A stretch of 64,000 nt of DNA from Salinigranum rubrum (GTDB lineage Archaea > Halobacteriota > Halobacteria > Halobacteriales > Haloferacaceae), in NCBI RefSeq assembly GCF_002906575.1, contig NZ_CP026311.1, positions 62,001-126,000 on the forward strand, written 5' to 3'. Shown one piece after another: positions 3,150 to 13,671 of the stretch. A program made the translations under genes and the position numbers. A model generated the notes under the pieces. It had not been told where the DNA came from, searched no databases, and saw only the letters and a program-made list of their open reading frames with translations. Position 1 is the first letter of the stretch. Every line of letters starts with the position of its first letter.

Positions 3150-5834
3150 ATGACCTCACCTGACGAGGAATCCCACGACGGGAGTGGTGAACCACCGGAT
3201 CACACCCACGACCACGGAGCGGATTCTCACGAGCAGGGTCATACACATGACCACGATCACAAGGATCACGAGCACGACAAGCACACTGGACAAGATGGTG
3301 ATGACATTGTCCCATCGATAGACCAGGGAGACGTTGCACAGTTCTCCGTCCCGGAGATGGACTGCCCATCCTGCGCAGGAAAGGTCGAAAACAGCGTCGA
3401 AAAACTGGACGGAATCCGGAGCGTCGACCCGCAAGTGACAACAGGGACGTTGACCGTCTCGTACGACGGCGAGCAAACGAGTGCCACCGCGATCGAAGAC
3501 CGGGTTCAAAAGGCCGGGTACACGGTGGAGGACACTGGCGAGGTCACCTCGAAATTCACGGTTCCGGAGATGGATTGTCCGTCGTGTGCGGGCAAAATCG
3601 AAAACGCCCTTGACCGGGTTGGTGGAGTGACAACATACGAGACGCAGCCGACGACCGGAACCGTCGTCGTCACGTACGACTCGTCGCGGGCTGGGGATGC
3701 TGACGTCATCGACGCGATCGAAAGCGCTGGGTACGAGGTCACGGATACGACAGGCGACGAATCGGGGCGTCAGGAAGCGAGCGGAGAGCGCGAGAGCATC
3801 TGGACGAGTTCGCGCGCACTCAAAACGTGGGTGAGCGGTGGATTCGTCGCCCTCGGCTTACTCTTCGAGTTCTTCCTGACCGGCCAGAATATACAGATCG
3901 CAGGTCTTCTCGGGACGGATCTACTGGTCGCTGACGTCCTGTTTCTGATTGCAGTGGCCACCGGCGGCCAGGAGATCCTTCGCAACGGCTACTACTCGGC
4001 GCGGAATCTGAACCTCGATATCGACTTCCTGATGTCGGTGGCTATCCTCGGCGCACTCGTTGCGAGTCTTGTCTTCGGTGAGGCACTCTACTTCGAGGCC
4101 GCCACCCTCGCGTTCCTGTTCAGCATCGCGGAACTGCTGGAGCGCTACTCGATGGACCGTGCCCGAAACTCCCTCCGCGAACTAATGGATCTCTCACCGG
4201 ATGAAGCAACCGTCAAGCGGAACGGGAGCACGGAGACGATTCCCGTCGACGAGGTCGCCGTGGGAGACATCGTCGTCGTCAAGCCAGGGGAGAAAATCCC
4301 GATGGACGGAAGCGTCGTCGACGGTGAGAGCGCCGTCAACCAGGCACCGATCACGGGTGAAAGCGTCCCTGTCGACAAGACGACGGGCGACGAGGTGTAC
4401 GCCGGCACTATCAACGAGGAGGGGTATCTCGAGGTCGAGGTCACCTCCGAGGCCGGCGACAACACGCTCTCCCGCATCGTGGAGATGGTTGAGGACGCCC
4501 AGTCGAACAAGACCGAACGCGAGCAGTTTGTTGAGCGCTTCTCGACGTACTACACGCCAGTCGTCGTCGGCTTCGCCATCCTGACGACGGTAGCAAGCCC
4601 GTACATCTTCGGCACGACCTGGTCCACGGCCGTCGTCTACGGACTGACGCTGTTGGTGTTGGCCTGTCCCTGTGCGTTCGTCATCTCGACGCCTGTCTCA
4701 GTGGTGTCGGGAATTACGAGTGCCGCGAAGAACGGCGTCCTCATTAAGGGCGGCAATCACCTCGAAGCGATGGGTGCGGTCGACGTCGTCGCGTTCGACA
4801 AGACGGGAACGCTCACGAAGGGTGAACTCACCGTCACGGACGTCGTTCCCCTGAACGGGAACTCAAAGGAGGACGTGCTCCGGTGTGCACGCGGGCTCGA
4901 GCAACGGAGTGAACACCCCATCGGCGAGGCAATCGTCGCCGAAGCCGGCAGCGCAGGGGTTGCCGAGCGCGAGGTCGATGACTTCGAGAGCATCACCGGA
5001 AAGGGCGTGCGTGCCGATCTCGACGGGACTCCTCACTTCGCAGGCAAGCCGGGTCTGTTTGAGGAGTTAGAGTTCGATCTGTCGCACGTTCACGCGACGA
5101 CCGACGGTGGCGTCGTGACACAGACAGCCCAGCAGATGTGTGACCGGAACAACTGTCTCGATCTTCTCGAAGAGACCGTCCCTGAACTCCAGGCTGAAGG
5201 CAAGACCGTCGTCCTCGTTGGGACCGAAGACGAGCTTGAGGGCGTCATCGCGGTCGCCGACGAGATCCGTCCGGAGGCGAAGCGAACGGTCACTCGATTG
5301 AAACAACTCGGTGTCTCCCGAACGGTTATGCTGACGGGGGACAACGAGCGGACTGCCCGCGCGATCGCCGAGCAGGTCGGCGTCGACGAGTACCAGGCCG
5401 AATTACTCCCCGAGGACAAGGTGACGGCGATCGAAGAGCTCGTCGAGGAGTACGACGGCGTTGCGATGGTCGGAGACGGAATCAATGACGCACCGGCGCT
5501 CGCCACCGCCACAGTCGGCGTGGCGATGGGGGCTGCCGGGACTGATACCGCATTGGAGACCGCGGACATCGCCCTGATGGGTGATGACCTCGCGAAGCTT
5601 CCGTACCTCTACGAACTCGCAAACGATGCGAACGGTGTCATCCGGCAGAACATCTGGTCGAGTCTCGCTGTCAAAGCCGGGCTGGCGGTCGCAGTCCCGT
5701 TCGGATACGTCCCGATTTGGCTCGCTGTCCTCGCTGGGGATGCCGGGATGACGACGGCCGTTACCGGGAACGCGATGCGACTCTCTCGAATCACGCCAGA
5801 CACAGACACCGAAACCAACGCTTCGGAGGGGTAA
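3150..5834 (+). CDS. zntA: zinc/cadmium/lead-type P1B ATPase with two HMA domains
   Basis: 894 residues, a full-length heavy-metal efflux ATPase. The first ~50 residues are His/Asp-rich (HTHDHDHKDHEHDKH) and may bind metal. Two heavy-metal-associated domains carry MDCPSC at C72/C75 and C143/C146. Eight membrane helices are expected. The membrane CPC motif (ACPCAF, about residue 505), the phosphorylation motif DKTGTLT (about 549) and GDGINDAP (about 773) are all intact. MDCPSC HMA motifs and the His-rich head favour Zn/Cd/Pb over Cu. An insertion containing CDRNNC before the P-domain return is unusual. One base separates it from the next gene, and the CDF exporter further down supports a zinc efflux operon. 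Confidence 0.93.
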   Translation: MTSPDEESHDGSGEPPDHTHDHGADSHEQGHTHDHDHKDHEHDKHTGQDGDDIVPSIDQGDVAQFSVPEMDCPSCAGKVENSVEKLDGIRSVDPQVTTGTLTVSYDGEQTSATAIEDRVQKAGYTVEDTGEVTSKFTVPEMDCPSCAGKIENALDRVGGVTTYETQPTTGTVVVTYDSSRAGDADVIDAIESAGYEVTDTTGDESGRQEASGERESIWTSSRALKTWVSGGFVALGLLFEFFLTGQNIQIAGLLGTDLLVADVLFLIAVATGGQEILRNGYYSARNLNLDIDFLMSVAILGALVASLVFGEALYFEAATLAFLFSIAELLERYSMDRARNSLRELMDLSPDEATVKRNGSTETIPVDEVAVGDIVVVKPGEKIPMDGSVVDGESAVNQAPITGESVPVDKTTGDEVYAGTINEEGYLEVEVTSEAGDNTLSRIVEMVEDAQSNKTEREQFVERFSTYYTPVVVGFAILTTVASPYIFGTTWSTAVVYGLTLLVLACPCAFVISTPVSVVSGITSAAKNGVLIKGGNHLEAMGAVDVVAFDKTGTLTKGELTVTDVVPLNGNSKEDVLRCARGLEQRSEHPIGEAIVAEAGSAGVAEREVDDFESITGKGVRADLDGTPHFAGKPGLFEELEFDLSHVHATTDGGVVTQTAQQMCDRNNCLDLLEETVPELQAEGKTVVLVGTEDELEGVIAVADEIRPEAKRTVTRLKQLGVSRTVMLTGDNERTARAIAEQVGVDEYQAELLPEDKVTAIEELVEEYDGVAMVGDGINDAPALATATVGVAMGAAGTDTALETADIALMGDDLAKLPYLYELANDANGVIRQNIWSSLAVKAGLAVAVPFGYVPIWLAVLAGDAGMTTAVTGNAMRLSRITPDTDTETNASEG

Positions 5835-5835
5835 G

Positions 5836-6273
5836 ATGGGTGCTGAGAACGAGGGAAACACAACGTCCCATACGGAGGCAGACCAGCAGCAATACCCGTT
5901 CGGACTCTCGTCTCCCCAGTTTGCCGTCCTCGTTGTGCTCGTTGGGCTCATCGGCCCCGGTTTGTTGGTATACACCCTCGAACAGGCGAATCTCTCTGGC
6001 GTCGCTGATCTCGTGTGGATCGTCGGCTATGGCACAACCGTATTTGTCGTTTGGTTCATCTGGCTTCGTCCGCTCGATTTCGCTGGCTCCTCCGCCCAAG
6101 ATACATCGCTCTACGAAGAGTCGGAGCGATCCGAACCAAAATCGGAGGGGGCCGATGGGGAGAGTACCTCTTCGGATAGCACTGAATCAACGGAGCAGGA
6201 TTCGATGGTGACGAGCGAAGACGGGGCCCAGGAATCTACCCAGGAACACCCGGAATCCTCAGATTCGAAATAG
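5836..6273 (+). CDS. small two-helix membrane protein in the zinc efflux operon
   Basis: 145 residues, starting one base after the ATPase stop, so almost certainly co-transcribed. There are two transmembrane helices (FAVLVVLVGLIGPGLLVYTL and IVGYGTTVFVVWFIWL, roughly residues 28-75), then a long Ser/Glu/Asp-rich cytoplasmic tail. There are no cysteines or metal motifs. The role is unknown; position suggests an accessory to the ATPase. The IS element begins just after its stop codon. Confidence 0.7.
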   Translation: MGAENEGNTTSHTEADQQQYPFGLSSPQFAVLVVLVGLIGPGLLVYTLEQANLSGVADLVWIVGYGTTVFVVWFIWLRPLDFAGSSAQDTSLYEESERSEPKSEGADGESTSSDSTESTEQDSMVTSEDGAQESTQEHPESSDSK

Positions 6274-6279
6274 AACCCC

Positions 6280-6287
6280 CTCTAATG
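6280..6287. repeat. target-site duplication, left copy (CTCTAATG)
   Basis: CTCTAATG at 6280-6287 is repeated exactly at 7219-7226, immediately outside the 15-bp terminal inverted repeats. The 8-bp length is what ISH1-type IS5 elements make. Confidence 0.85.
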
Positions 6288-7218
6288 TGCTCTGTTGAAT
6301 AGATGCTGAGTCACGGTTACAGCGGCTCACACAGTGGTTCTATGTTGATGATGGCGAACATCAGGACGATCTCACGAAACTGTCGATACCAGCCCAGCGC
6401 TCGCACGGCATCGCCGAGCGAGCGCTTGGTTGTCGAGTACGAGGTTTCGGCCATCCAGCGCTGAGAGTAGCCTTTTGCCCGAATGAGTGCGTTGTTTGTG
6501 GCTGCTTTCGGTGACGATCCGCGGTAGTGAACGAGGTACTCAACGTCGTGTGCGGCGACCTCGTACTCGGTGTGCCAGTCTTGAAATCCGTTGTCGGCGG
6601 CGACGGTCAGCAGGTCGTCCGCGTTCCGGCGGACGACCTGCGGCCCGGTCTTCGTATCGTGTTTCCACCGAGCTGTGATGTGGACGTCAAGAACAGCAAG
6701 CGATTCCACATCAGTCAAAGTCGTTACTTTCAGCGTCTGTACCGTGCTTCCTGCCCGCTGGCGGAAATACGATGACGCACGCCGGCGGTCGAAGAACGTG
6801 CTGTCCAGAGCAGCGTGTCCAGACTGCGGGTGCTGCTGCGCGGAAACGCGCAGCAGCGCCCGCCACACCCACATTTTCAGCCGATCGAACGACTTGTAGA
6901 TCGTGCTGTGGTCAGGAAGGTCGTCTCGACCGAGCCCGAGTACAGCACGTATCTCAGCCATGTACTCCAGCCGATTCGGCGTTTCACGGTAGCTATGGCC
7001 CTCTTCGAGCCGAAAGCAGTGTAGAACGACGTGGATCCAGCGGGCGAACCCGCCGCTGGCGGGCTCGCCCGCGTGCTTCCCCAACGCTTGTTTGGCTAGG
7101 TGACGACACCGTTCAACGAAGTCGAGGAGGTCGACTTCCATAAGTCAGAATCGAGTTCCTCGGCTTCACCCTTCTAAAGCAGCGATATCGACAGATTAGA
7201 TCGCTATTCAACAGAGCA
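6288..7218 (-). mobile_element. complete ISH1-like IS5-family insertion sequence, 931 bp
   Basis: Perfect 15-bp terminal inverted repeats (TGCTCTGTTGAATAG at 6288-6302, complement at 7204-7218) bracket one transposase gene on the minus strand. Identical 8-bp flanks (6280-6287 and 7219-7226) show a simple, recent insertion with no later rearrangement. The element sits between the two-helix protein and the CDF transporter, dividing a zinc efflux operon. Confidence 0.92.
6317..7141 (-). CDS. IS5-family (ISH1-type) DDE transposase
   Basis: 274 residues, intact. Candidate catalytic acidic residues are in ALDSTFFDRRRAS (D), AADNGFQDWH (D) and RWMAETSYSTTKR (E), the last matching the Y/R/K-rich DDE_Tnp_1 C-terminal signature. 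The N-terminal EMAEIRAVLGLGRDDLPDHSTIYKS-like region is typical of ISH1 transposases. It fills almost all of the bracketed element, so the IS may still be active. Confidence 0.9.
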   Translation of the reverse strand: MEVDLLDFVERCRHLAKQALGKHAGEPASGGFARWIHVVLHCFRLEEGHSYRETPNRLEYMAEIRAVLGLGRDDLPDHSTIYKSFDRLKMWVWRALLRVSAQQHPQSGHAALDSTFFDRRRASSYFRQRAGSTVQTLKVTTLTDVESLAVLDVHITARWKHDTKTGPQVVRRNADDLLTVAADNGFQDWHTEYEVAAHDVEYLVHYRGSSPKAATNNALIRAKGYSQRWMAETSYSTTKRSLGDAVRALGWYRQFREIVLMFAIINIEPLCEPL

Positions 7219-7226
7219 CTCTAATG
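7219..7226. repeat. target-site duplication, right copy (CTCTAATG)
   Basis: Exact repeat of 6280-6287, adjoining the right terminal inverted repeat. It ends 7 bases before the start codon of the CDF gene. Confidence 0.85.
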
Positions 7227-7233
7227 TGGACTC

Positions 7234-8169
7234 ATGACCTTTCACGAGCATACCGATGAGGAGACCGCAGAGCACAACCTCCCGTCTAAATCAAGTGGCA
7301 GTACGCGCCGGCTTGCGCTCGTCGCGGTCGTCAACTTCCTCGGATTCGTCATCGAACTGGCTGGTGGACTCCTGTTCGGGTCGGTCGCTCTCATCAGCGA
7401 CGCCCTCCATATGCTGTTCGATATGCTTGCGTACGCGATGGCGTTCGGGGCGAGCTACACCGCCGAACGGTTCGAGGGTGGCGAGGCGTGGTCGTACGGT
7501 CTCCACCGACTGGAGCCGGTTGCGGCCTTCCTGAACGGCGTCTTGCTCCTTCCAATGGTCGGATACATCGTCTGGGAGTCCTACCAGCGGTTCCTCGAGC
7601 CGGTGGCGATCAATCCAGAGTTGACGCTGATCATCGCGACGGGTGGCCTGCTGGTAAACATCGGCTCCGTGTACGTGTTGCAGGGTGGTGAGATGAGTCT
7701 CAACGAGCGCGGGGCGTTCTACCACCTGCTCGGTGACGCCGGTGGCTCTGTTGCGGTAATCGTCTCGACCGCCGCCGTCGCAGTATTCGATCTCCCCATC
7801 GCAGACCCTGTGGCGGCCGTACTTATTGGGCTGCTGGTACTCGCATCGGCTGGGAACGTCCTCCGGGAAAGCACCTCAATCCTGCTGGAACGGAGTCCGG
7901 TGTCGTCCGAAGAACTCCGGGATGAATTGACGACACTCGATGGCGTGGACCAGATTGAGGATCTCCACGTCTGGCAGGTGTGTAGTCAACTCACCGTCGC
8001 AACCGTCCGACTGACAGATACGGCGACCACACTGGAGGAGCAACGGAGAATCCAGTCACGGGTTCACGATCATCTCACGGATCGAGGGATCGACCACGCA
8101 ACCGTCGAGCTCGTCGGGCGTGCCGACCCCAATACTGACCCTGTCGGTACGCCGAATCACTCCCACTAA
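7234..8169 (+). CDS. cation diffusion facilitator (zinc exporter, CzcD/ZitB type)
   Basis: 311 residues with six membrane helices. The transport-site motif HxxxD-type pairs are visible in ISDALHMLFDML (helix 2) and FYHLLGDAGGS (helix 5), as in Zn2+/H+ antiporters. A cytoplasmic C-terminal domain (about residues 215-295) includes EDLHVWQVCSQLTVATV, typical of CDF dimerisation domains. The N-terminus and C-terminus carry His clusters. The ATG at 7234 lies 15 bases from the IS end, so the original promoter or operon link has been replaced or cut. With the upstream ATPase it forms a two-pump zinc efflux system. Confidence 0.9.
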   Translation: MTFHEHTDEETAEHNLPSKSSGSTRRLALVAVVNFLGFVIELAGGLLFGSVALISDALHMLFDMLAYAMAFGASYTAERFEGGEAWSYGLHRLEPVAAFLNGVLLLPMVGYIVWESYQRFLEPVAINPELTLIIATGGLLVNIGSVYVLQGGEMSLNERGAFYHLLGDAGGSVAVIVSTAAVAVFDLPIADPVAAVLIGLLVLASAGNVLRESTSILLERSPVSSEELRDELTTLDGVDQIEDLHVWQVCSQLTVATVRLTDTATTLEEQRRIQSRVHDHLTDRGIDHATVELVGRADPNTDPVGTPNHSH

Positions 8170-8171
8170 CG

Positions 8172-8579
8172 ATGTCCCACACAGCACCCAATCGAATGTT
8201 CGAGGTGTTGGACGAGACGAACGAGAACCTCATTGCGATTCGCGTCGGGAAGGGCACGCGAACGGGCTATCAAGAGCTGTACTCGCTCCTCGTCGAAAAG
8301 AGCAACCAGTACGGGCACATCCACGTGTACGAGGAAGTTCCGAACTGGACGTTCGGGACGTTTCTCACACACCTCCACGGGGTGATTCCCGATCTCCGGT
8401 ACGGCCCCGACTTCGATATTGATCGGTACGCCGCAGTCGGCGATACACGATGGGCGAAACTCCTGTTCGACTGGTGGCGTACAATTCGACCGATCTGGCC
8501 AGTCTCGCCCGACAAGATGCGATATTTCGACATGAAAGACCACGATCAGGCCCTCAGCTGGCTTCGGGAGGAGGGGTAA
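8172..8579 (+). CDS. SpoIIAA-like (STAS/SEC14-fold) protein
   Basis: 135 residues starting 3 bases after the CDF stop codon, hence in the same operon. The pattern ...LIAIRVGKGTRTGYQELYSLL...HIHVYEEVPNW...RYAAVGDTRWAKLL...YFD...ALSWL matches the SpoIIAA-like/DUF3478 family, small alpha/beta proteins whose role is not established. The C-terminal LSWLREEG is the usual family ending. No signal or membrane segment is present. Confidence 0.75.
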   Translation: MSHTAPNRMFEVLDETNENLIAIRVGKGTRTGYQELYSLLVEKSNQYGHIHVYEEVPNWTFGTFLTHLHGVIPDLRYGPDFDIDRYAAVGDTRWAKLLFDWWRTIRPIWPVSPDKMRYFDMKDHDQALSWLREEG

Positions 8580-8915: not shown

Positions 8916-10007
8916 TCAGGCATGCCCTCCATGCTGTACTGTCCGCCCGATAGTGTATCCGGCTTCAAGGAGGGTATCAGAGAACGCAGCGCTACTGAAA
9001 AGCTCCTGTATATGATGGACACCAGACGGGTGTGACGGGCCCAACGTCTCCACGACGCGAGCGGTGACCAGTGCCGTCGCACGGGCCTGATCTGGTCCTC
9101 GAATCCACCGCTCGATATCCGTTACTCGGCCGTTTGCCCGACCACGAACCTTCGTTTTGACCACTGACTCGTCGGACCCGAACCAGACAGCCTCGGTCAA
9201 GTTAACTATTCTATCAACCCCGAGCAACGATACAGCTGGCTGATACAGTCCGGTACGACGTAATAGCGCCAGATACCGCGTGACGAGACGAGAGTCGTAA
9301 CACAGTCGACTCTCGATTATTGGGATATCCGTTGTCCGAGCAAGTACATGTTGATCAGCGAGATTTGCACGGTACGCTCGACGTCGACCCCACCCAGGAA
9401 TATCGACCTGCCGTGGGTCAGTCAAACCGGCCACCGACATAGACTCGCCGTCAACTCGAATCGAGAACTGGCCAAGGGCGTCCTCGACGGTCCATTTAAC
9501 TGTATCTGGACCGAAGGCCTCTCCGATACCTAACAACAGGGTGATGTCCGCTCGGTCGACGGAATCGAGTTCCGCTATTGCTTCAGCCACGAAGAGATTC
9601 GTCATTCCGGGGGAGAGTCCGACACTGAGTACGGCGGTCGCCTCCCGTTTGCGAGCGAGATCATCGAACGATTCGATCGCTTGGAGCAGTGCGTCCGTCG
9701 GCGAGATGTCGACGTAGTCGATGCCGCGCTCGAGACAGGCCTCCGCGAACCGTGGTGTATCTTGGTCCAAGCACATCACTACCATTCCCACGCCGGCGAG
9801 AGCGTCTGCATAGCCCGTCCTCTCACTGACATCGAGCGTCTGGGGTTTGACACCATGGACAGACGCTGAAAAACGGCGTGCCTTTTTTGGAGATCGGCCT
9901 GCAGCGAGAATTTCTCTCTGTGTACGGGCTGCGAGCTCAGTACAGACAGTCCGGCCGATAGTGCCGTAACCTCCGACGACAAGAACAGATGCGTCATCCC
10001 TGGACAT
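8916..10007 (-). CDS. saccharopine dehydrogenase-like NAD(P)-dependent oxidoreductase
   Basis: 363 residues. The N-terminal Rossmann motif VLVVGGYGTIGRTV (residues 8-21) and the following AAGRSPKKAR, ...MVVMCLDQDTPRFAEACLE and GIDYVDISPT segments are typical of the saccharopine dehydrogenase NADP-binding domain family. That family also includes trans-acting enoyl reductases and carboxynorspermidine dehydrogenases, so the substrate is unknown. A 14-bp palindrome lies 37 bases before its ATG; the same palindrome precedes the HTH regulator gene directly upstream, implying shared control. Confidence 0.75.
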   Translation of the reverse strand: MSRDDASVLVVGGYGTIGRTVCTELAARTQREILAAGRSPKKARRFSASVHGVKPQTLDVSERTGYADALAGVGMVVMCLDQDTPRFAEACLERGIDYVDISPTDALLQAIESFDDLARKREATAVLSVGLSPGMTNLFVAEAIAELDSVDRADITLLLGIGEAFGPDTVKWTVEDALGQFSIRVDGESMSVAGLTDPRQVDIPGWGRRRAYRANLADQHVLARTTDIPIIESRLCYDSRLVTRYLALLRRTGLYQPAVSLLGVDRIVNLTEAVWFGSDESVVKTKVRGRANGRVTDIERWIRGPDQARATALVTARVVETLGPSHPSGVHHIQELFSSAAFSDTLLEAGYTIGRTVQHGGHA

Positions 10008-10043: not shown

Positions 10044-10057
10044 CCGAGTATACTCGG
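10044..10057. promoter_or_regulatory. perfect 14-bp palindrome, candidate operator
   Basis: CCGAGTATACTCGG is fully self-complementary and lies between the regulator stop and the oxidoreductase ATG. An identical copy occurs at 10762-10775. Its TATA core overlaps the expected promoter position. Confidence 0.65.
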
Positions 10058-10067
10058 GGGAGACTCA

Positions 10068-10730
10068 TTAGATAGCCTCTTTGTCGAGATAGCGTGGGAG
10101 CAGATTGGCTTCGATTCGTTGGAGTTGTTCCGAGACCGTCGCGGGGGCTCGCTCAACCGCCTCGGCAATCTCTTCGTGTGTCGCTTCTCGTGGAACCTCG
10201 TAGTAACCTAACTTGACGGCGGCTTCGAATACGTCGCGTTGCCGCTCGGTGAGCAGGTCCTCAAGCTGGCCACCGCCAGGAACGTACTCACCGACGCGCT
10301 CTGGATAGAGGTCGATTCCGGGTGGGATGTCCGCAGTGATTTGTGTGATTGCGGAGTCCGTTCCGACGACGGTGAGGCGTATGCCTCGGTCGGTGTATTC
10401 ATCGGTGTATTCGATCGGTGGAGCAAGGACGAGTGAATACGCCGTGAGGATGTAGAACAGGCTCGTCATCGATGGTGACTGGCTGTACACCATATACGCG
10501 AGCCCAGTCTCGCGTGTCACGGCAAAATCTTGGACCGACTCTTCGGCTGCGAGAAGTCGTTCAAGCATTTCCATATCTCCCGAAAATGCACTCAACTCGA
10601 CGAACTGCTCGCCAATTCGATTGATTTGGTGTGTCGTGTCTATCGTTACGGCAGGAGTGTCTTCGATGGCAGTCTCAAGTGGATGGAGAGCCCCATCGTT
10701 CCAGACCAGAACTCCAGAGGCGAATCGCAT
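10068..10730 (-). CDS. bacterio-opsin-activator-type HTH regulator
   Basis: 220 residues from the ATG at 10730 (MRFASGVLVW); the longer open frame would run across the palindrome and is less likely. The C-terminal LTERQRDVFEAAVKLGYYEVPREATHEEIAEAVERAPATVSE-type region is the HTH_10 domain (last ~60 residues). The N-terminal ~150 residues form the poorly characterised ligand or sensor part. Its own promoter and that of the next minus-strand gene share the 14-bp palindrome, suggesting autoregulation plus control of the oxidoreductase, and possibly of the divergent SRPBCC gene. Confidence 0.8.
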   Translation of the reverse strand: MRFASGVLVWNDGALHPLETAIEDTPAVTIDTTHQINRIGEQFVELSAFSGDMEMLERLLAAEESVQDFAVTRETGLAYMVYSQSPSMTSLFYILTAYSLVLAPPIEYTDEYTDRGIRLTVVGTDSAITQITADIPPGIDLYPERVGEYVPGGGQLEDLLTERQRDVFEAAVKLGYYEVPREATHEEIAEAVERAPATVSEQLQRIEANLLPRYLDKEAI

Positions 10731-10761
10731 AGTGGTCCGTGGGCTGCCGTGAGTATTAACC

Positions 10762-10775
10762 CCGAGTATACTCGG
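10762..10775. promoter_or_regulatory. second copy of the 14-bp palindrome in a divergent promoter
   Basis: CCGAGTATACTCGG, identical to 10044-10057. It sits about 32 bases from the regulator ATG (minus strand) and 39 bases from the SRPBCC ATG (plus strand), so one bound dimer could affect both directions. Confidence 0.65.
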
Positions 10776-10813
10776 ATACACTCCCAATCGCATCGGCCCT
10801 AAACTGAGAGAAT

Positions 10814-11320
10814 ATGATCGAAGCAAGCGCCGCGGTCAGAATCGATGCGTCACCGGCAACAGTCTGGTCGTTTCTGGAGGAGTTCGAAACCCTCTGGGAA
10901 AAGTCTAATCCAGATCACGACGGGACATGGGTCGTCATGGATCCGAAGAAGCCACTCCGGGACGGGCTCCGATTCTATCAGCGGGAGTGGGTCGGACCGG
11001 TTAAAGGGATAATCAAGGCAGATCTCCGTGATGTCGTCGAAGAGAGGCGGTTCAGTTGGATCGGTACGTGTACGTATACCCTGCCCCCGTTCCCGCTCGC
11101 GTTCACCGTCGAAGAGGGAGGGACCATACAACTCGAGCCGACAGACGGACAAACACGCCTCTCCCACCGCGTCTGGGCCCGCGTACCACCGACAATCCTC
11201 GGGAGAGTTCTTCAGGGGGTGCTACCCATCCTTGGAGACATCGAACAGGAAGCCTACGAACACACCCTCGTCGAGTTGGAATACTTCAAGGACGTGATCG
11301 AGAATGATACCGGGAATTGA
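10814..11320 (+). CDS. SRPBCC (START-like) ligand-binding family protein
   Basis: 168 residues. The N-terminal EASAAVRIDASPATVWSFLEEFE is the standard opening of polyketide cyclase/SRPBCC proteins. The C-terminal helix GVLPILGDIEQEAYEHTLVELEYFK fits the fold. There is no signal peptide. It is divergent from the HTH regulator and shares the palindromic intergenic region, so it probably belongs to the same regulon. The ligand is unknown. It ends one base before the convergent arylsulfotransferase-like gene. Confidence 0.7.
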   Translation: MIEASAAVRIDASPATVWSFLEEFETLWEKSNPDHDGTWVVMDPKKPLRDGLRFYQREWVGPVKGIIKADLRDVVEERRFSWIGTCTYTLPPFPLAFTVEEGGTIQLEPTDGQTRLSHRVWARVPPTILGRVLQGVLPILGDIEQEAYEHTLVELEYFKDVIENDTGN

Positions 11321-12643
11321 TTAGCTTCGAATACTGTCAATTCCCCCGCCGACGATGAGCAGTGTCGAAACAACCGTCACTCCGAGTTGTGGCTCTCGAA
11401 ACCAGAAGGGTGTCGAGGGAATGATGGCTCGAAGGCCGACCAGTAATAATGAGAGAACCGGCACGTCGGCATCAGGACTAGCGACGTCACCACCCTTATT
11501 CGTGTACATCGGCCCACCGACAGATTCACCGACCGGGAGCCGGTCCGCTTCGTACGGAATACGCTCGGTTTGGAAACTCCAAACTACCCTTCCAGATTCG
11601 TTGACTTCGACGAGCCGACGATTCAATGTGTCTGTGATTAACGTGTTCCCGTTCGAGAGGCGGTCCGCATCCCGAGGCCAGTTCAAGGGAATATCTCCCG
11701 CACTGTCGAGAATCCAAGCAGGTTCCCAATTCCCGTCCTCGGTTTGGTGCAGTTCGACGACACGGTCGTTCTCGCTATCAGCGACGAGGACGGCATCATC
11801 CCCGAGCCACTGAGGGTTGTGCTGGTGGTTGAGCACGTCGGGGTCACCACATCGAATATCGCCATCACTGTCATAGTCGGCTAACTGGCCTGATTTCCGA
11901 CAGTTGGCATCGTTTGAATCGGTCGTGTCCTCGTTGATGACGTCGACGACACCCTCACCGCGCTCGATGACGAGAAGTTGGTTTGCATTCCGTACTGAGA
12001 CAAGATAGCGCCCGGTGCTGATGACATCCACGTCGTTGATGTGCAGCCAGTCGGTCGTCGTCGGATCTTGTGGGGCGTCGTAGAACGAACTCGCATTCCA
12101 CTGCCACGTGACTTCGCCGTTCCTGACAGTAAATATACGCTCGTACTCCATATCCGTCACGAGGTATTCTCCTGTCTGAAGTCGTTCGACATCGTGGACT
12201 TCGCTGTTCTTGTTCGTTCGGACCGGGAAGCTATACTCCGAAAGCACCTGTGGCTGTTGCCCGGGGTCAATGACTCGGAATCCCGTCCGGGTACAGGGAG
12301 ATTCGTACGGTCCGCACGAAGTATATCCGCTGTCCATGAACCCAGCTAAGACAGTCCCATTCTCCGTTTTTGTCACGTCGAAATAGCTTTCAGCGCTAGA
12401 TTCACGCCATGTCGTGTTCGTACCGTTGAGGAGGTAGACGCTCCCGTATTCGTGCCAGCCTGGGCCACCTCCCTGAGACCCGACCAAGGTTCGGGCTGTT
12501 TGATCTGTTTCCGAGGCCGTCCCAATCGCCGGGGCGAGCAGTGCGCTGCTAACAACGGTGAGAGCAAACAAACCCACGCCGAGAAGGATTAGATAGCTAC
12601 CCCGATGGAGATCGGGCACAGTAAAGTTCGGGACGAGGTTCAT
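11321..12643 (-). CDS. arylsulfotransferase-family (ASST) beta-propeller membrane protein
   Basis: 440 residues. An N-terminal hydrophobic segment (YLILLGVGLFALTVVSSALLA) acts as signal or anchor and a C-terminal helix pair follows the propeller. Repeats such as EVHDVERLQTGEYLVTDM, WLHINDVDVISTGRYLVSVR, VLNHQHNPQWLGDDAVLVAD and WPRDADRLSNGNTLITDT match archaeal arylsulfotransferase (PF05935/PF14269) blades, with His residues in HDV/HIND/HNP contexts. Haloarchaeal members are of unproven activity. It overlaps the next upstream gene by 4 bases, forming an operon with it and a winged-helix regulator. Confidence 0.75.
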   Translation of the reverse strand: MNLVPNFTVPDLHRGSYLILLGVGLFALTVVSSALLAPAIGTASETDQTARTLVGSQGGGPGWHEYGSVYLLNGTNTTWRESSAESYFDVTKTENGTVLAGFMDSGYTSCGPYESPCTRTGFRVIDPGQQPQVLSEYSFPVRTNKNSEVHDVERLQTGEYLVTDMEYERIFTVRNGEVTWQWNASSFYDAPQDPTTTDWLHINDVDVISTGRYLVSVRNANQLLVIERGEGVVDVINEDTTDSNDANCRKSGQLADYDSDGDIRCGDPDVLNHQHNPQWLGDDAVLVADSENDRVVELHQTEDGNWEPAWILDSAGDIPLNWPRDADRLSNGNTLITDTLNRRLVEVNESGRVVWSFQTERIPYEADRLPVGESVGGPMYTNKGGDVASPDADVPVLSLLLVGLRAIIPSTPFWFREPQLGVTVVSTLLIVGGGIDSIRS

Positions 12644-12918
12644 CTTTGGATATACAGCGAATACATAATGACCGCGAGGCCAAGGGCAACGAATAGACTG
12701 TTGATGAGTACGCCAAGTGCCAATCCGACAGAAAAGAACTGATTGGCCACACCAGTCAAGATTGCCCCGAATGTGATGATACCGAACCCAACACCAAGAA
12801 CGCGTAGCGAATGCTCACCAGTCCGTCGATAAGCTTTAAACGCGATATAGGTAATCCCACCACCGAGAAGCAGGATGATTAATTTGACAGCTGCAATGGC
12901 CGTGATAACGCTGTTCAT
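12640..12918 (-). CDS. small three-helix membrane protein (DUF7521-like)
   Basis: 92 residues with three helices (AAVKLIILLLGGGITYIAFKAY, LGVGFGIITFGAILTGVA, ALGVLINSLFVALGLAVIMYSL). ATG/stop overlaps of 4 bases with both neighbours show tight translational coupling with the winged-helix gene upstream and the ASST-like gene downstream. From memory it matches the haloarchaeal DUF7521 membrane family often found next to such regulators. The function is unknown. Confidence 0.65.
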   Translation of the reverse strand: MNSVITAIAAVKLIILLLGGGITYIAFKAYRRTGEHSLRVLGVGFGIITFGAILTGVANQFFSVGLALGVLINSLFVALGLAVIMYSLYIQR

Positions 12919-13292
12919 ACTTCGTCCCCCATCATCGACCAGATATCTGCAAGCCGTTCGTCGGTGGATTGCGGCGTCCGGTCGACATTCACAGTAAACA
13001 CACCTGTGTCGTCCATCGAAATCGTGACGTCCTCGAACGAACGTTCGTAGTAGGTGACCCGTCCACCGCCAGGATTGATGGTCTCCTGTTCCCGGACGAG
13101 GGAGGCGAAACTGAGGAGTTCTAATTTACGATACAGCGTCGACTTGGGGATGTCACATGCGTCGAGGAGTTCGTTTGCAGTCATTGGTTCGATAGTTTCC
13201 CGGAGAATAGCCCGACATGCGGGATCATCCAGTGCATCCAGGACGTCCTGCAACTCTGGGGAGTCCTCGGGTGACACTGAATTATCTCCCAT
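12915..13292 (-). CDS. winged-helix (ArsR-like) transcriptional regulator
   Basis: 125 residues from the ATG at 13292 (MGDNSVSPEDSP). The longer open frame to 13577 is basic and non-halophilic and was not used. A winged-helix domain spans LQDVLDALDDPACRAILRETI...MTANELLDACDIPKSTLYRKLELL; a beta-rich C-terminus follows (VTYYERSFEDVTISMD). This domain pair is common in haloarchaeal regulators encoded with DUF7521-type membrane proteins. It probably controls its own operon. Confidence 0.75.
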   Translation of the reverse strand: MGDNSVSPEDSPELQDVLDALDDPACRAILRETIEPMTANELLDACDIPKSTLYRKLELLSFASLVREQETINPGGGRVTYYERSFEDVTISMDDTGVFTVNVDRTPQSTDERLADIWSMMGDEV

Positions 13293-13443
13293 TATTCGAT
13301 AATAGGTATTCCACGGGATATGATGTCTGATTGCCAGCGAGGCACCCCGTCGATCCCACGGCGTCATCCAGGCTTGTGGTTTCAGAGTCATGACAGCCGT
13401 TCCATCCAAAGAGAGCGAACATAGTGACACAGTTGTGAAGTGG

Positions 13444-13671
13444 TTACGATTCGTACTGGGTTTTGAGTCGTTGTTCGCCCGCGTCGGTAATCTCGTAGAG
13501 ACCCCTCCCACGCGGAACAATACAGTCCTCACTATGGAGATGAGCACACGCTTGGTCAATGGTGATTGGGTGTCCATCGACGGCGTTCGTGATTTCCATC
13601 ACATGACAAGGTGATCCGTCAACGAGCAACTCTAATACCTCAATTTCGGTCTGTATTGAGAACTCACTCAT
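13444..13671 (-). CDS. small winged-helix DNA-binding protein
   Basis: 75 residues from the ATG at 13671 (MSEFSIQTEIEVLELL). An upstream ATG at 13734 would overlap the tfb stop but adds non-acidic sequence. HVMEITNAVDGHPITIDQACAHLHSEDCIVPRGRGLYEITDAGEQRL has the helix-turn-helix and wing pattern of haloarchaeal PhiH1-repressor-like proteins. It lies downstream of tfb in the same direction. Confidence 0.6.
   Translation of the reverse strand: MSEFSIQTEIEVLELLVDGSPCHVMEITNAVDGHPITIDQACAHLHSEDCIVPRGRGLYEITDAGEQRLKTQYES

Follow-up and report, generated by a model that had tools for sequence, protein, structure and literature searches.

A conserved 14-bp palindrome as candidate operator of an HVO_0513-type HTH_10 regulator in haloarchaea

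Two exact copies of a perfect 14-bp palindrome, CCGAGTATACTCGG, occupy positions 10044-10057 and 10762-10775 of a 64,000-nucleotide stretch of Salinigranum rubrum DNA (hereafter the window) situated on the 198-kb contig C3 of the source genome, G000. They are probably (at about 0.85, in our estimate) the operator of REG, the transcription regulator encoded between them, which would thereby control its own gene, the gene of the oxidoreductase OXR and that of an SRPBCC-family protein. An earlier note on this DNA had given both positions, which are exact, and had proposed a three-gene regulon; that proposal stands as an inference from the HTH_10 domain of REG, the joint conservation of the gene cassette and both sites in five loci, and the way the site tracks REG from genome to genome. 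Comparison of sequences gives the site, its positions, its conservation and this association with REG directly.

REG (220 aa) is encoded at 10068..10730 on the minus strand, with a likely ATG start at 10730 chosen by reference to homologues. It consists of an HVO_0513_N domain (Pfam PF24278, 6.8e-36) followed by a C-terminal HTH_10 domain (PF04967, residues 160-211, E 4.8e-13, above the cut-off), a two-domain architecture identical to that of the HVO_0513 family of HTH_10 regulators. OXR (363 aa; 8916..10007, minus strand, likely ATG at 10007) is a saccharopine-dehydrogenase-like NAD(P)-binding oxidoreductase (PF03435, 1.1e-11), and the SRPBCC-family protein (168 aa; 10814..11320, plus strand, likely ATG at 10814) is of the polyketide cyclase / lipid transport type (PF10604, 2.4e-07); both are syntenic in the five loci. 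Neither candidate operator has a strand of its own: the one at 10762..10775 is common to the divergent REG and SRPBCC promoters, the one at 10044..10057 belongs to the OXR promoter, and the distance from palindrome to ATG is 31 bp for REG, 36 bp for OXR and 38 bp for SRPBCC. In the REG direction, a TATA-like TTAATA (10754..10759, minus strand) begins 2 bp past the palindrome, in a region where most relatives carry TTTAWA about 4 bp past the site; on the SRPBCC side, adenines at +5 and +11 past the palindrome (10780..10786, plus strand) fall in the presumed BRE/TATA region, A+11 being at -28 from the ATG. REG has no better box than TTAATA, and a clear TATA box is missing at OXR. A structure model of REG, built from four sequences, was of low confidence (mean pLDDT 66), too poor to assign a fold, and a structural search with it gave no useful match.

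A lone palindrome of this length is unremarkable: the window holds six perfect 14-bp palindromes of any sequence against 6.3 expected under a first-order Markov model. None of 400 simulated windows contained identical 14-bp palindromes within 1 kb of each other, so the significance belongs to the pair, and the suggestion that such a pair is unlikely by chance was borne out to that extent. A search of the whole genome (4,973,118 bases) returned only these two exact copies, both in cassette promoters; allowing up to two mismatches added 10 further, scattered places. The exact 14-mer also turned up in 22 viral contigs, copies that were judged unrelated since none of REG, OXR, SRPBCC or the P450 discussed below was present in the viral DNA retrieved. 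The degenerate pattern CCGAGYATNCTMGG occurs in genomes lacking a REG-type regulator as well, at least partly within a conserved coding stretch, and the widespread matches to CCGAGCATCCTCGG were set aside on the same ground.

The OXR - REG - SRPBCC cassette recurs with identical gene order in five haloarchaeal loci, namely the window, Natrinema ejinorense (L046), Halonotius terrestris (L047), genome G234 (L061) and plasmid pHME505 of Haloferax mediterranei (L247; E6P09_RS17275-RS17285). Across these orthologous cassettes, in which REG is 76-81% identical, both palindromes are kept in all five, with zero to two mismatches per site, and they stand out against diverged and poorly conserved intergenic DNA. 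Two loci carry substitutions in them, Halonotius terrestris (0+1) and G234 (2+1). The site lies 37-38 bp from the SRPBCC ATG and 36 bp from that of OXR, and OXR homologues outside the cassette (37-52% identity) have no such palindrome. The two palindromes are 718 bp apart in every cassette, despite compensating small gaps in the window lineage; this constancy may be due to chance or may reflect a constraint on spacing. In Natrinema ejinorense and G234, similarity to the window ends at the cassette borders, and the cassette thus appears to move as a unit. The window's flanks (4872-8572 and 11249-13046) are 87-94% identical to the Halonotius terrestris contig and the cassette only 77%, a pattern that would fit replacement of the cassette through recombination. 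A transposase-like ORF at 6317-7141, between the heavy-metal ATPase region and a cation efflux gene, is probably a recent insertion, since the same contig lacks window positions 6290-7218.

The strongest argument for REG as the protein that would bind the site comes from outside the window, where most REG relatives are divergent to a cytochrome P450 gene (PF00067, 1e-88). In these pairs the site falls in the intergenic DNA, immediately ahead of REG's own TATA box and at a distance of 37-42 bp from the P450 start codon, a geometry that the SRPBCC and OXR promoters also fit. It was present in all 37 counted P450 promoters with an adjacent REG and in none of 12 without one (L183-L194, 76-86% identical to the query P450); these counts are not phylogenetically independent, and the Fisher value of the table, which ignores kinship, is not to be taken literally. 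Because the 12 promoters without REG also lack the site, the site follows the regulator and not the target gene; because genera g41, g59 and g34 each contain both kinds of P450 locus, with REG and site or without either, loss of the regulator appears to bring loss of the site. In one of the 12 (L184, genome G132) the promoter retains GACGAGTATCGGATACAAAGATAGG, which may be the degraded remains of an operator half with the former core promoter after it. Drifted versions of the site occupy the equivalent position in more distant pairs (L202-L207). Read from site to target gene, all 44 counted promoters have A+11 and 42 of them have A+5; among the four cassette loci counted, two lack A+5 at OXR. 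If the transcripts are leaderless, as are 72% in Haloferax volcanii (PMC4983044), these adenines would mark the BRE/TATA region of the target gene. The invariant T-11 and T-5 upstream of the palindrome might suggest the site of a second factor; the better reading is that they are A+5 and A+11 in the BRE/TATA region of the gene on the other side, P450 or SRPBCC.

REG-family relatives (E<=1e-20) occur in 156 of 292 haloarchaeal genomes, and of 84 homologous regulators 45 are preceded by a related site. About 40 more distant relatives (34-45% identity) carry a drifted site with the consensus CCGAGCATSCTMGG. On the tree of the 84 regulators this site maps to one clade, requiring 3 changes versus 27.8 with shuffled labels, and many HVO_0513-family subclades have no CCGAGCATSCTMGG-type site. 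Within the clade, the nested subclade of L122, L138, L139 and L153 has its site changed to CTAGGATRCTAGA, palindromic in L122 as TTCTAG...CTAGAA, together with a recognition helix changed from EHLQRIE to DRLQRIE. In general, TVSEHLQRIE mostly accompanies CCGAG and SDRLQRIE the TTCTAG half-site, and regulators with EHLRKIE are mostly without a site. The recognition helix varies with the site, a correlation along the tree and no proof of contacts.

The earlier note called REG a regulator of the bacterio-opsin-activator type, which holds for the HTH_10 domain that it has in common with Bat and does not extend to orthology. Bat has GAF and PAS/PAC domains before HTH_10 and different target genes; REG is not its orthologue, as its N-terminal half is HVO_0513_N, with no GAF/PAS. 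The published Bat site, the bop UAS, lies upstream of a non-consensus TATA box (PMC1447603), a likeness by position. The description of HTH_10 operators as poorly known is apt in that few have been found, although this UAS and the palindrome CGAA-N4-TTCG of NarO/denitrification promoters (PMC5746218, PMC10062603) are both published; for the HVO_0513 family, no operator description was found in the open-access literature searched. The Haloferax NarO/denitrification motif, of the form CGAAYATDKTYG (PMC5746218, PMC10062603, PMC11218638), resembles the REG site in core geometry, upstream position and its link to HTH_10, and its mutation lowers promoter activity (PMC10062603, PMC5746218). As expected of an HTH_10-type system, the REG palindrome stands, by position and conservation, upstream of the target core promoter. 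Its core, CGARYATRYTCG (CGAG-TATA-CTCG), differs from CGAA-N4-TTCG by one base per half, with G for A at half-site position 4 plus an outer C and G; REG thus belongs with the HTH_10 regulators, its candidate operator having another letter at that position. It departs from the NarO type in operator and N-terminus alike and would serve only one local cassette, compared with about 80 promoters for the NarO-type motif. The NarO-type sequence CGAACATGTTCG is itself found three times in the source genome (contig C1: 44347, 2671622 and 2696694; L111, L115 and L116), two copies being close upstream of NarO-like HTH_10 genes, one beside a DUF2249 gene, so that denitrification-type regulators are probably present there. 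The P450s paired with REG are likened to haloarchaeal CYP174A1 by type, with no implication of orthology. Deletion of CYP174A1 changes pigments in Halobacterium, and no adjacent regulator is described for it (PMC6212597), unlike the P450s divergent to REG relatives with the site between them.

From these patterns we infer that each 14-bp site would be occupied by a REG dimer, immediately ahead of BRE/TATA. At the central site (10762-10775) it would control its own and the SRPBCC promoter at once, at the second (10044-10057) that of OXR, and the signal would be a small molecule sensed by the N-terminal domain; the repeated beta-alpha-beta units predicted there by the weak model would suit such a sensor. 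REG would act as a local activator and autoregulator, activating SRPBCC and OXR here and the P450 in relatives. Activation is the direction we lean towards, judging from site position and relatives, because the TATA regions of the targets are weak and keep a constant spacing downstream of the site, as would be expected of activator-dependent leaderless promoters, and because Bat, DmsR and NarO are described as activators (PMC1447603, PMC10062603). Repression is a less probable direction, in which bound REG would block TFB/TBP at the divergent promoters and at OXR until released by a ligand. The TATA box that adjoins the site in the REG direction is a good one, so bound protein could hinder BRE contact there, and autorepressors are commonly located between divergent genes; on the target side, however, the site is upstream of the TATA region and not over it, a weak TATA region would hardly need repression, and the described relatives argue for the opposite sign.

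It is very improbable that the site belongs instead to another protein, such as the HTH_20/ArsR-like one encoded nearby (12918-13577) or a NarO-type regulator, similar as NarO-type sites are (PMC10062603). Three of the five cassette loci (Natrinema, G234 and H. mediterranei) have no other shared regulator nearby, the NarO-like genes of the source genome carry CGAACATGTTCG and not CGAG...CTCG, and the absence of the site from P450 promoters lacking REG means that it tracks REG, the ground on which a nearby regulator was rejected. The two copies flank REG in differing genomic contexts and a transposase-like ORF lies in the window, as might be expected of a mobile-element trace, a recombination site or, for the palindromes themselves, a terminator hairpin. 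Such an origin is more doubtful still, given the near-fixed distance to the start codon in unrelated neighbourhoods (OXR 36, SRPBCC 37-38, P450 37-42 bp), the single copy, located in the promoter, at P450-type loci and the lack of a T-run after the palindrome. A chance repeat was rejected as having a negligible probability: about six single palindromes of this kind are expected per window, but the simulated windows yielded no such pair, the genome has only these two exact copies, and both are conserved in diverged loci.

The regulator-P450 pair with its shared site is widespread, and this wider pattern, which went unseen in the earlier note, is of more interest than the window's own two copies. 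At even odds, we propose that haloarchaea at large possess an undescribed family of one-component regulators, every member of which would be dedicated to activating a neighbouring P450, locally and by way of one central palindrome common to two divergent promoters; in the window cassette, the P450 would have been replaced by SRPBCC and the saccharopine-dehydrogenase-like reductase and the operator duplicated, and half-site bases and recognition helix (HLQRIE, DRLQRIE or the NarO-like ERLHRIE) would change together, giving a readable HTH_10 recognition code. The gene functions suggest a hydrophobic substrate for the SRPBCC protein, the reductase and the P450. All of this falls within known types of archaeal regulation. 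HTH_10 regulators are abundant in haloarchaea and few of their operators are known; the site provides a defined candidate for one large clade and links it to haloarchaeal P450 genes lacking known control, and specificity could be read from the paired changes in operator and recognition helix. The claim is directly testable, since the cassette is present in the harmless genetic model Haloferax mediterranei, where REG is E6P09_RS17280. Autoregulatory palindromes may be general in the HVO_0513-type family, going by a sister group of regulators (L045, L127, L130 and also L126) that have a near-palindrome of their own immediately upstream of a TTTATA box, with the sequence CGGCGTATCCGCGG in three members. 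In the source genome, a paralogous regulator with 31% identity (L157) has CCGGTTATAATCGG about 205 bp upstream (G000, contig C2:223110-223123), one mismatch from the relaxed operator, and cross-talk with REG is conceivable.
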